Shown here piece after piece: positions 3,293 through 11,890 of a stretch of DNA of 45,151 bases (the stretch's first letter is position 1; every line of letters begins with the position of its first letter). Origin of the DNA: Bacteroidales bacterium (GTDB lineage: Bacteria; Bacteroidota; Bacteroidia; Bacteroidales; FEN-979); contig JADGPR010000019.1 in NCBI GenBank assembly GCA_017882335.1, positions 1 through 45,151 of the forward strand. Reading direction: 5' to 3'. The position numbers and the translations under genes were made by a program. The notes beneath the pieces are model-generated. The model was given only the letters and a program-made list of their open reading frames with translations. It was not told where the DNA came from and did no database searches.

Positions 3293-4052
3293 TAGTACCA
3301 GATTAGTCATTCTATATCTTCAGCTAGCCTATGGCTTCGTTTAGCCTGGCAAGCTTCACTCTTCATTGTTCCCTCTTCATTGTTCCAATTGGCGCGTGTC
3401 CGCCAAAGGCGGATAAATCTGTGACGTATGCCGAATTACTGACCCTCCAGTTGGCGCGCGTCTGTTAACTGTTGGAATAATATTCCTTTCCCTGGCATTA
3501 TGCATCGGCAGATGAAGCTACCCAGCCTCTTTGGTTACAGCAACAATGGGATACGATCAGACTTAAGGCAGGTTTCGCCGGGTCAAAGGAAACTTTGCTG
3601 GTAATCGATGAAATTCAGAAAATTCCGGATTGGAGCAACCGGATAAAAATACAGTGGGATAAAGACAGCTTTTTTCCTCTCCTCCGGCGTGCAAAATGGC
3701 GTGCAAAAAGGTGTCATTTATTATCTGTTATATTATATAAAGATGATTTTCAGCTATATAAAATATAATAAAATTACGGGAAACCGTAATTATTGTTTAC
3801 GGATATTGGCAATTGACAACACATCTTGTATATTGTATATTTACTTTCGAAAATATAACATATAAGATCTGATCCAAAACTCCAAAACCTGTTGAATTTT
3901 ATTTTTTTAATAACAAATCGGGTATCTAAAAAAGGAAAAAAACAGCTGAGGATCAAATAAATAAACAGGAGTACCCTGAAAATCCTTGAAAAACAGGGCG
4001 CGGCAACCGAAAAGCGAATGAGTAGGTAAACACAATAAATACAAAAATTGAT
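3293..4052. other. Intergenic decay zone
   Basis: This 760-base stretch has no intact gene. It holds the ATPase remnant (3481-3666), a small hairpin TCCGCC-AAA-GGCGGA at 3399-3413, and two imperfect copies of a phrase built on TTGGCGCG (near 3389 and 3452). A hairpin AATTACGG-GAAA-CCGTAATT lies at 3772-3791. The last 250 bases are very AT-rich and lead to the 735-aa gene at 4053; TACTTTCG at 3842-3849 resembles the -7 element TAnnTTTG, but I find no convincing -33 element at the right distance. Confidence 0.6.
3481..3666 (+). pseudogene. Remnant of an AAA ATPase of the DUF4143 type
   Basis: About 60 codons are readable. They include WLQQQWDTIRLKAG and then LLVIDEIQKIPDWSNRIK followed by QWDKD. 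This matches the Walker B region (hhhIDEIQK) of the ATPases that carry a C-terminal DUF4143 domain. The P-loop, the rest of the ATPase domain and DUF4143 are absent, a stop lies directly upstream, and the frame drifts into unrelated sequence after 3666. It is a relic, not a gene. Its position next to the truncated hydrolase suggests that 2474-3790 is a region of repeated insertion and loss. Confidence 0.7.
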
Positions 4053-9469: not shown

Positions 9470-9619
9470 GGACATTTTTAAACATAAGCGAAGGAGCGAA
9501 TTGGTGAGATACAAAATGGTAAAACAGCGAAATTTAGAATGGTAAAAATCGAGTTCCATCTGGGTGAAGCCAGCCTGGTATTATCCATCTTTTATTGAAG
9601 AATAACAGTTTTGAACTTG

Positions 9620-9937
9620 TTATGATGCAGTTCTTGTAACAGCATGAATAATCCCCCTAATCAATCTAAAAAGGAAAACCCCCATAAGCACCGCCAGGCA
9701 TCCAAATACAATATAGATCATTGCCTGGCCAAATGGTGTTTGAAAGAAAGTATCGTTAATGGGTGAACCACTTTTTACCGGCGCTTTTGAATAAACTGAT
9801 ATAGGGTTCACATTATCTTTTCTTGAGGTATATTTATAAAAAAGATAGGCAGTAAGCGCTGTGAAGGCATTTGCGATCAGGTTACTCCAAACCGGGTCAT
9901 TCCAGATCTTCTTTATTAAAATAATGACTTTCTTCAT
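9620..9937 (-). CDS. Small membrane protein with two hydrophobic spans
   Basis: The frame is open further upstream to 10087, but the ATG at 9937 (MKKVIILIKKIWNDPVWSNL) is the better start: the longer version would run through the 22-bp repeat array and has no sensible N-terminus. The resulting 105 residues contain a hydrophobic stretch near residues 20-35 and a stronger one near 73-95 (MIYIVFGCLAVLMGVFLFRLI). The phrase IWNDPVWSNLIA resembles a motif seen in other small bacterial membrane proteins of unknown role. The palindrome array lies 100 bases upstream of this start and could control it. Confidence 0.6.
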   Translation of the reverse strand: MKKVIILIKKIWNDPVWSNLIANAFTALTAYLFYKYTSRKDNVNPISVYSKAPVKSGSPINDTFFQTPFGQAMIYIVFGCLAVLMGVFLFRLIRGIIHAVTRTAS

Positions 9938-10034
9938 TTCGCAGTAGTTTTTACCTGTATGACGTTTTGACATTAAACCATTGACATGGTGTAAAAAAAC
10001 ATTGCCTGAAAAGATTGAATAGAAACCATTGCAA

Positions 10035-10120
10035 AACGGATAAGCATCCGTTACAAAACGGACAAGCATCCGTTGTGAATCGGACAAGCATCCGTTGTGA
10101 ATCGGATAAGCATCCGTTTA
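10035..10120. repeat. Array of four 22-bp palindromic repeats
   Basis: Four copies occur at a strict 22-base period, starting at 10035, 10057, 10079 and 10101. Copy 1 is AACGGATAAGCATCCGTT, a perfect 7-bp inverted repeat around AAGC. The others vary only at the first two bases and at one stem position (GGAT or GGAC). The 22-base period is about two turns of DNA, which puts all palindromes on one face of the helix. The period is not a multiple of three and the array lies outside the likely coding region. It sits upstream of the small membrane gene (start 9937) and downstream of the HU-like gene's terminator. An operator or protein-binding array is the most natural reading. Confidence 0.85.
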
Positions 10121-10174
10121 AGGATGGATGAGAAGTTGTTGAAATTCACTGAAAAACACATACTTAACGCTAAG

Positions 10175-10211
10175 GCAAAAAATGCCTCCAGTTAAACAAC
10201 CGGAGGCATTT
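10175..10211 (-). terminator. Rho-independent terminator of the HU-like gene
   Basis: A 14-bp stem with one G-T wobble pairs AAATGCCTCCAGTT (10180-10193) with AACCGGAGGCATTT (10198-10211) around a 4-base loop. Read on the minus strand it is followed by six T, placing it just after the stop of the HU-like gene at 10221. Confidence 0.85.
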
Positions 10212-10220
10212 CAACCCATT

Positions 10221-10601
10221 TTAAACTTTGACAGCCTCAATCAGTTTAAGCTGTTGAGAAAGCTCTTTTCCGGGCCTGAACAGTAATTTGAAGTCTGTAA
10301 TATCGGAAGCTATCAATGCTTCCGCGGTATCCTTACCATTGCAGTGCAGGCTTATTCTGAAGGTGCCGAAGTCGCCAAGGTAAATGATGTTTCCTTCGAC
10401 AAGGAAGAATGGAAGCACCTGGGTAAGGGCTTCTAAAACCGCCATGACGTCGGTACCGCTCAGGGAAGTTCTTTCCGCGATTTCCTTGGATATTTTCCTG
10501 AGGGTTAGCTTGTCAGTGTAGACAGGACTGGGATAGAATTTTGCCGGATCATTGGGTTGTAGCGGGTTTTTCCGCGCTATTGCCTGAAATTTGATAGCCA
10601 T
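10221..10601 (-). CDS. HU-like DNA-binding protein
   Basis: The ATG at 10601 gives a 126-residue product (MAIKFQAIARKNP); an upstream ATG at 10625 is less likely. The layout is that of the Bacteroidota HU-related proteins: a ~40-residue N-terminal extension, then LTLRKISKEIAERTSLSGTD and MAVLEALTQVLPFFLVEGNIIYLGDFGTFRIS, matching the helical dimer core and the GDFGTF turn of HU, then a beta arm and a C-terminal tail. Such proteins bend or coat DNA; many copies exist per genome and are often linked to mobile regions. The gene is transcribed away from the response regulator at 10896. Upstream, TTG (10677-10679 on the plus strand as complement) and TATTTTCG (10648-10655) are spaced like a phylum-type promoter. 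Confidence 0.85.
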   Translation of the reverse strand: MAIKFQAIARKNPLQPNDPAKFYPSPVYTDKLTLRKISKEIAERTSLSGTDVMAVLEALTQVLPFFLVEGNIIYLGDFGTFRISLHCNGKDTAEALIASDITDFKLLFRPGKELSQQLKLIEAVKV

Positions 10602-10647
10602 TTTTTTTAGTTTTAAGTGAAACAATCAGTGAATTATATGATTATTG

Positions 10648-10680
10648 CGAAAATACACGCATTGTTAACCTTCAGTCAAT
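10648..10680 (-). promoter_or_regulatory. Probable promoter of the HU-like gene
   Basis: On the minus strand ATTG (10680-10677) and TATTTTCG (10655-10648) are 21 bases apart, close to the Bacteroidota pattern TTTG-N19/21-TAnnTTTG with one mismatch in each box. The ATG at 10601 lies about 47 bases beyond. Confidence 0.45.
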
Positions 10681-10895
10681 GGGTATAGATACATATTTCT
10701 AGTATATAATATGAGTATTTATACCTATAAATATGCCCGATTTCCACAAAATGCCCTGGAGTCGATTTGAAGAATGGTCCTTTTCGCATTGTTATTAATA
10801 CAATTTTTATATACATAATGTATAAGTTATGGAAAAATATTAATTTCGAAGCCGATTAAGTATGCAATCCCTTAAAAAACTATGAAAAACATCAT

Positions 10896-11534
10896 ATGAA
10901 AGCCCGTATTCTCCTTGCAGATGATCACTCCCTCCTGCGGAAGGGTTTAGCTTCGATCCTTAAACATCACAACAGCGAATGGGAATTGTTTGAAGCAACC
11001 GATGGCGAGGATGCCATTAAAAAAGCGGGTCTGCTTCGTCCGGATCTTATTTTAATGGATTATAACATGCCCGTTCTTGACGGGATTCAAGCCACGATCG
11101 AAATAAGGCGAAAGTTTCCGGAAATAAAGATCATCATGGTATCAATGGATATGACAGAAGAGGTAGTCATACAAGGAATGATGGCCGGTGTAAAAGGTTT
11201 TATCCCGAAGGACTCCCCCGAACCCGAGCTTCTGGCTGCCATTCATGAAGTACTGAGAGGAAAGTATCATCTTACAGGCAGAATACTGGAGATCGCGCAA
11301 AGACAATCAGAGATAAGGAAACATCCTCCCAATACTCCTGACCGGATTTTTTCCCGGCGTGAAACCGATGTCCTTAGGCTTGTGGTTGAAGGAATGACGT
11401 CGGTTGAAATTGCAGGAAAGCTTAATATCAGTAAACGCACTGTCGATCACCACCGAAGTAACCTCCTCGCCAAGAGCGGAACAAATACACAGGCTGCACT
11501 GATAAGATTTGCGTTAAAGACGAATAGCGTTTGA
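10896..11534 (+). CDS. NarL/LuxR-type response regulator
   Basis: The 212-residue product has a receiver domain (about 1-120) with the acidic pair in ILLADDH and the phospho-acceptor Asp near residue 55 (LILMDYNMP), the switch Ser in MVSMD, and Lys in FIPKDSPE. A LuxR-type helix-turn-helix fills 150-205 (SRRETDVLRLVVEGMTSVEIAGKLNISKRTVDHHRSNLL). Length and order match the NarL family, which binds DNA as a dimer after phosphorylation by a sensor kinase. No kinase gene is next to it, so it is an orphan in this window. It is transcribed divergently from the HU-like gene. Its target is unknown; the 22-bp palindrome array 800 bases away is one possible site. Confidence 0.92.
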   Translation: MKARILLADDHSLLRKGLASILKHHNSEWELFEATDGEDAIKKAGLLRPDLILMDYNMPVLDGIQATIEIRRKFPEIKIIMVSMDMTEEVVIQGMMAGVKGFIPKDSPEPELLAAIHEVLRGKYHLTGRILEIAQRQSEIRKHPPNTPDRIFSRRETDVLRLVVEGMTSVEIAGKLNISKRTVDHHRSNLLAKSGTNTQAALIRFALKTNSV

Positions 11535-11890
11535 AATGCTCCCTTCGACAGGCTCAGGGAGCGTATCGGTGGGTGAGCTTGTCGAAACCACAGGCTCCCT
11601 TCGATAGAATGCACTATCTTCATTGAGCAAGGCCAGAGTGCCATGTCGTAATCATCGTCCAAGGAACGCACAGCGATACCATCTCATGATGTTCCGTAGG
11701 ATGAATTGTTGGTAGTTCAAAAAAGTTCATCCTCTGATTAGATCCCTCGCCTTCAAATCAGAGTTGCCTGTAGAAAAGACATTCACTAATATTTTATATA
11801 ATAATTATTTGTAATTTGCAAGGGATATTCTACTGATGGCTAAGCCATATTGCAGCTCTCGGTGGACATCAAAAGCAAATGTTAATTATT
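11535..11890. repeat. REP-like hairpins plus copy A of a long diverged repeat
   Basis: Bases 11538-11562 form the hairpin GCTCCCT...AGGGAGC with the phrase TTCGACAGGCTC in its loop, and 11568-11593 a second unit containing GAGCTTGTCGAAACCAC. The same units occur in reverse order at 21211-21266. From about 11610 to 11822 runs copy A of a ~213-bp repeat whose diverged copy B is at 12607-12820; shared blocks include AGTGCCA, TCCAAGGA.CGCA, a TACC-containing core and TTTGTAATTTGCAAG at the end. Both long copies lie directly before a membrane-protein gene. No ORF in the stretch is credible. Confidence 0.65.

Follow-up and report, generated by a model that had tools for sequence, protein, structure and literature searches.

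We report that a tandem array of 22-bp palindromic units in a Bacteroidales genome lies beside a gene of the HU_rel (HU-HIG) family, and that arrays of the same or nearly the same period, differing in sequence at nearly every locus, accompany most short HU_rel genes that we examined across the order. The array described here probably binds several dimers of the HU_rel protein encoded next to it, a prediction drawn from sequence comparison.

A phased array of dyads beside an HU_rel gene

The window, by which we mean the whole 45,151-nucleotide stretch of contig JADGPR010000019.1 that was analyzed, carries the array in a gap that runs from the 3′ end side of the HU_rel gene to the start of a small membrane-like gene. 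The features of this region are:

10033..10054, no strand assigned: unit 1, AAAACGGATAAGCATCCGTTAC, with a 7-bp perfect dyad
10055..10076, no strand assigned: unit 2, 22-bp tandem unit
10077..10098, no strand assigned: unit 3, 22-bp tandem unit
10099..10120, no strand assigned: unit 4, 22-bp tandem unit
10121..10142, no strand assigned: decayed fifth unit, recognized by eye, in register with the fifth unit of the copy on contig C85
10180..10211, minus strand: terminator-like hairpin (inverted repeat) between the HU gene and the array
10221..10601, minus strand: HU_rel / HU-HIG gene (126 aa; PF18291, TIGR01201), encoding the proposed cognate protein of the array
9620..9937, minus strand: small gene (105 aa; judged membrane-like by eye)
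10896..11534, strand not given: LuxR-type response regulator gene (family search)

Tandem Repeats Finder reports a period of 22 at 10029-10118, with 4.1 copies, 89% matches and no indels. The dyad of copy 1 is perfect, with 7-bp arms (AACGGAT-AAGC-ATCCGTT, 10035-10052); in copy 2 the T at its inner edge is replaced by C, copy 3 retains a 4-bp core (CGGA/TCCG) and copy 4 a 5-bp core (CGGAT/ATCCG). Taken by columns, the profile of the array shows dyad symmetry (p=0.012, column shuffle). By eye, the window and the C85 copy also have AATTCACTGAA in common after the decayed fifth unit. The initial annotation had described four near-identical 22-bp copies with a dyad in each, perfect in copy 1 and at the core of copy 4, set between an HU-like gene and a small membrane gene at some distance from a response regulator; Tandem Repeats Finder and the unit alignment bear out the first part, gene positions and Pfam the second. 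The small membrane-like protein (105 aa) matched no Pfam or NCBIfam family. Further along, at 11546-11612, the window carries a CTCCCTTCGACAGGCTCAGGGAG palindrome, of a type that we take to be scattered in Bacteroidota.

By both family models the neighboring protein is a member of HU_rel / HU-HIG, scoring 94 bits against PF18291 (cut-off 26.2) and 72.6 bits against TIGR01201 (HU_rel; cut-off 68.6). Its orthologue in G003, a relative of the same genus, reaches 84.9 bits with Pfam PF18291, over the cut-off, and 59.7 bits with TIGR01201, under the 68.6 cut-off. When the window protein and 21 homologues are combined in a profile (22 proteins), positions 29-120 align with HU and IHF chains (best E 2.3e-10), and the match leaves out some 30 residues at the N-terminus; an AlphaFold model has a pLDDT of 48, too weak for a fold search. 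A PF18291 search of the same genome gave four matches, of which only the window's is full-length (~93-94 bits). The other three are at the level of canonical HU (≤41 bits) and lie on C68, C30 and C102, so that none is on a contig bearing one of the five other copies of the unit described below.

Arrays of period 21/22 accompany HU_rel genes across the order

Of 393 genomes of the order searched with the window protein, 24 (including that of the window) yielded 34 matches at E≤1e-18. Scanning of these loci for self-similarity at fixed lags uncovered 21/22-bp arrays of varied sequence beside many HU_rel genes. The test set comprised 33 regions of up to 45 kb (442,436 bp) with 35 HU_rel genes, namely the 34 matches and one more found within. 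A sub-period filter (identity >0.60) dropped microsatellite rows before the strict, dyad, Mantel, density and named-record counts, and was not part of the shuffle test.

In these regions, period 21/22 is represented by 24 arrays no farther than 350 bp from an HU_rel gene and by two elsewhere, both in G400, versus four near and four far for the 19 other periods in the range 15-35 taken together. Expressed per intergenic sequence, there are 24 arrays in 16,023 bp near the genes and two in 82,607 bp distal to them (15.0 versus 0.24 per 10 kb, ~60-fold). Such arrays occupy 24 of 67 HU_rel flanks, the window's included, and none in 20 Markov-shuffled sets of those flanks. At the strict threshold an array is found at 23/35 HU_rel genes, covering 19/24 genomes and 16/19 families. 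Canonical HU loci had none (0/27 versus 23/35; Fisher p=1.7e-8, with kinship ignored and the period chosen post hoc); these 27 are the loci available for 55 canonical matches, some belong to genomes outside the HU_rel set, and scanning them whole gave no 21/22 array either. A Markov shuffle test without an identity threshold (p≤0.01) was passed at 21/22 by 30 of the 35 HU_rel genes and failed by five, compared with 0, 1 and 3 of 35 passing at the control periods 18/19, 25/26 and 30/31; for canonical HU this test placed the gene at locus positions 1501-1780, incorrectly so for three or more loci that start near a contig end. These association statistics ignore kinship and reuse the loci where the pattern was noticed, apart from four matches outside the discovery scan, among which L211, L214 and L219 pass the strict test and L215 gives p=0.007. 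As a working definition we propose that a cognate array is a tandem one of 21/22 bp no more than 350 bp away from a short HU_rel gene, as is found in the window.

Almost every HU_rel locus has a unit sequence of its own. Dyad symmetry is significant (p<0.05) in 17 of the 24 arrays and not in the other seven, which include the orthologous array of G003 (p=0.22). By eye, many units consist of an 18-bp dyad plus ~4 bp, often reading A-tract, core, T-tract, for example AAAAGATGTACATCTTTT (G411), ATAACTCAAGTGAGTTAT (G238) and the imperfect AAAACACAGTGTGTTTT (G310). Arrays stand 3′ of the gene in 14/24 cases and 5′ in 10/24. The genes on their far side differ between loci and look unrelated, as far as crude ORF calls can tell; a tally of array orientation (14 tandem, 5 convergent, 4 divergent, 1 unknown) was set aside, the crude ORF caller misplacing the window's array. 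On these comparisons the HU_rel gene is the sole constant partner of the arrays.

Unit similarity rises with protein identity over the 24 gene-array pairs (Mantel r=0.394, p=0.0002), and the correlation persists once GC content is controlled for by regression (r=0.413, p=0.0003) or same-genome pairs are dropped (r=0.371). Shared ancestry of neighboring DNA could yield part of this co-variation, which therefore supports recognition and does not prove it. Given the association across the order, binding by the HU_rel protein becomes the leading reading of the array, and the pattern suggests that each short HU_rel protein may be paired with its own DNA landing strip.

A relative keeps the place and period of the array

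BLAST with a 401-bp region of the window found no match at E≤0.001 among 60 relatives. A protein search revealed that G003 keeps the gene order small gene, HU_rel, response regulator, and its gap holds four units with spacings of 21, 22 and 22, built on a different sequence around GTTGGGCAAC. The window and G003 spellings have GCA(A/T)CCGTT in common, in phase; their profile similarity of 0.48, against a mean of 0.41 for all pairs, makes for a modest likeness. The same gap thus keeps its place and a near-identical period with a changed spelling. Absence of the array from relatives that keep the genes had been named beforehand as an outcome that would speak against the operator-like reading; G003, the only keeper found, has an array in the gap. 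The search of G001, G002 and G004, of the same genus, gave no full-length HU_rel match, and a search of GTDB contigs for the HU pair returned only the contig of G003.

The G003 array has a second copy at C1:97604. A second HU_rel gene of this genome comes with an CAAACGTTTG array of its own (L189:7717-7794; G003:C1:18216-18293), which makes two HU_rel-array pairs in one genome. Just beyond that array lies AACGGATGCTT, matching the window's unit.

The unit recurs at a few intergenic places in its genome

In the window's own genome (3.13 Mb, 123 contigs), a search with the sensitivity of BLAST and of a 14-mer with one mismatch placed the unit at six intergenic sites, the window and five others:

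C2:13782-13861: four good units and one decayed
C85:106960: three scoring units and two more by eye
C119:9889: three units
C2:4436: single unit
C47:38869: single unit

At least three units are present at four of the six places and one unit at two, and the period is 22 wherever units are tandem. Matches on C30 (inside an ORF) and C38 (coding by eye) were taken as chance and excluded. Elsewhere, G030, G012 and G014 gave single 14-mer matches, with no second unit by eye in ~100 bp on either side, and the exact tandem pattern was found 0 times in GTDB contigs and 0 times in IMG/VR, collections from which the window's own records are possibly absent.

Dispersal of this kind raises the alternative of an autonomous repeat, minisatellite or REP/BIME/MITE-like, expanded by slippage and spread by transposition, for which the side of HU_rel genes would be a preferred landing site and not a bound one. 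It would account for the six intergenic copies of one to five units and for the C2b copy, which sits beside REP-like palindromes and has ~140 bp of flank in common with the C47 copy (82%); the genome also has a RAYT gene. There is a precedent in BrickBuilt of Porphyromonas gingivalis, a tandem 23-nt repeat at 19 intergenic loci, set in a MITE with leader and/or tail on 16/19 copies, whose shortest copy (BrickBuilt_14, 84 nt) lies directly next to a DNA-binding gene of the PF00216 family (PMC4596501). Nevertheless, we regard such a repeat as an unlikely explanation: a single spreading repeat is not expected to differ in unit sequence at nearly every HU_rel locus yet hold to a period of 21/22, other periods are rare beside the same genes (four arrays over 19 periods), and the palindrome at the RAYT gene has a different sequence.

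The flanks of the single RAYT gene found (C2, NF047646) carry GGCACGCGTC... palindromes and not the 22-bp unit. Inverted copies of the GGCACGCGTC..GACGCGCGCCAACTGG palindrome stand on either side of this gene (L022:15030-15728; with flanks, G000:C2:16029-16796), and more are found on C2, C30, C76 and C106, with one near window positions 3385-3425. Judged by sequence, these palindromes form a REP system that is separate from the 22-bp array. A classical REP element was rejected for the array, with its few copies and lack of a RAYT match: the scattering of the core that the initial annotation had considered fatal occurs in part, at six intergenic places in 3.13 Mb, yet these are few for the high, scattered copy number of REP/BIME elements, and the palindrome common to RAYT flanks is another one. 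The array resembles REP/BIME elements with RAYT transposases in being an intergenic dispersed palindrome, partly in mosaics with other palindromes, and differs from them in its low copy number, its strict 22-bp tandem phase and the lack of a visible RAYT link. Separately, four tandem ~50-bp units, TCTAGAATAATGTCACCCCTGCGGGG..., follow directly after an IS200-type transposase gene (L057, G000:C85:23589-23988).

RNA-level and operator functions

The arrays might instead act in RNA, as tandem terminator or stabilizing hairpins or as RNA sites for the HU_rel protein, as the A-tract, core, T-tract layout of many units (by eye) and the 14/24 arrays 3′ of the gene would allow. We judge this very improbable, given that 10/24 arrays are 5′ of the gene, that RNA hairpins need no strict helical period, and that the window and G003 both have a separate terminator-like hairpin between gene and array, at equivalent places. 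The window's hairpin, 10180-10211, is absent from the list of a separate pattern scan. A known structured RNA was rejected, a search of 9500-10900 having matched no Rfam family at its cut-off.

The explanation to which we give least credence is that the array serves as operator for the orphan response regulator or for some other regulator acting on the small membrane gene. In its favor, the small gene starts 96 bp downstream of the array, the regulator is 776 bp away, and G003 keeps both genes. Against it, they occur together at only 2/30 HU_rel loci (tblastn, loci of up to ~3.4 kb), namely those of the window and G003, and the far-side genes of other arrays look mutually unrelated on crude ORF calls. 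With the regulator not conserved alongside the array, its operator was rejected, and both neighbors look incidental. What stands of the operator-array reading first given to this DNA is a phased protein-binding array with the HU-like protein as candidate, in keeping with the order-wide HU_rel association; the link to the regulator and the small gene is not supported.

The 300 bp upstream of the window HU gene contain no full copy of the unit, which makes simple autorepression unlikely. Upstream of the HU gene in the 14 genes with a 3′ array no strong unit copy was found either, 3/14 exceeding the 95th percentile of distal windows and none coming near the score of the array. Autorepression at the HU promoter was rejected on the lack of a strong unit there. 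The 3′ or 5′ position of the arrays, together with the lack of a strong promoter unit, favors a protein-site module that is anchoring, architectural or co-inherited, as far as sequence can indicate.

The rule seems to belong to short HU_rel proteins

Plasmid and phage collections searched by tblastn with another HU_rel protein gave 22 records, each scored at its best place (22 of 24 places). Relatives in 21 of the 22 are longer, at 144-216 aa by our own ORF calls, and a 21/22 array accompanies 3/21 of them (5/21 at periods 20-23); several sit in gut DUF4248 / smalltalk / amidase cassettes. The only short HU_rel among the named records, of 124 aa, is encoded by the spirochaete plasmid pTS1 of Treponema saccharophilum, with a 21-bp array upstream (L229:2666-2746), and may represent a transferred protein-array pair. 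With the one short relative having an array and 3/21 long ones, the rule seems to belong to the short HU_rel subfamily.

BLAST counts a second place for the pTS1 array on the same plasmid. Repeats of ~21-22 bp with A-tracts and T-tracts, resembling the Treponema array, also occur in Phocaeicola massiliensis (L242:3001-3069, L243:3001-3064), with no HU_rel gene seen within ~3 kb, the best two matches being weak and in other genes; in this gut Bacteroidaceae genome they may be dispersed sites, and an independent repeat fits too. A virus-borne system was rejected: none of the 35 stretches of IMG/VR that fit peptide patterns drawn from an alignment of six HU_rel proteins encodes a relative. Five unverified scaffolds of the phage collection do encode long relatives.

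Discussion

Under the reading that we favor, in which the HU_rel protein binds its array, each palindromic unit (an ~18-bp dyad with a 4-bp spacer) would take one HU_rel homodimer. The 22-bp repeat corresponds to two helical turns, which would set successive dimers on one face of the DNA, where they could build a nucleoprotein patch in which the DNA is bent or wrapped. The window HU_rel protein would have further sites in the other five copies (C2 twice, C47, C85 and C119) and through them might bend, insulate or bridge a number of intergenic regions. The sequence of an array and that of its protein would drift together. More tentatively, short HU_rel proteins may possibly make up a large family of nucleoid proteins, orthogonal and addressed by sequence, that diversified in specificity along with private 22-bp arrays, one by the gene and others chromosome-wide, in which case a genome would carry one or more independent addressable chromatin layers.

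HU is usually regarded as a non-specific, architectural DNA binder, whereas most short HU_rel genes examined here, though their products belong to the HU/IHF superfamily (the window protein to HU_rel / HU-HIG by both models), are linked to a locus-specific phased array. IHF, Borrelia Hbb and TF1 of phage SPO1 are HU-fold dimers that bend preferred sites, as proposed for HU_rel, and chains of IHF, Hbb and "transcription factor 1" are among the PDB matches of the HU_rel family profile; to our knowledge their sites are not tandem 22-bp arrays next to their own gene. ParB/parS and operator or iteron arrays resemble the proposed pairing in that a protein is encoded beside clustered sites of its own; they differ in protein fold, and no partition or replication-initiator gene was recognized beside the window array. 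Burroughs and colleagues reportedly described HU-HIG in Cell Cycle in 2017, and could already discuss such a pairing.

Among the literature consulted, BrickBuilt is the nearest published object, with its tandem intergenic repeats and one copy by a DNA-binding gene; it differs in its 23-nt period and its MITE leader and/or tail, and section 5 of that account proposes no HU link (PMC4596501). In the open-access literature, represented mainly by the beginnings of abstracts and by parts of PMC4596501 and PMC5771137, we found no description of an HU_rel-array pairing.

The early guess that the HU-like protein binds the array survives, and at the level of sequence it widens to what appears to be an order-wide rule. 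The pairing would supply a testable function for HU_rel genes. If true, a widespread HU subfamily with phased recognition arrays of its own would amount to a specific HU-type chromatin, and would offer a series of naturally occurring protein-DNA pairs from which to work out sequence reading by HU arms, as well as a set of orthogonal DNA-bending tools.
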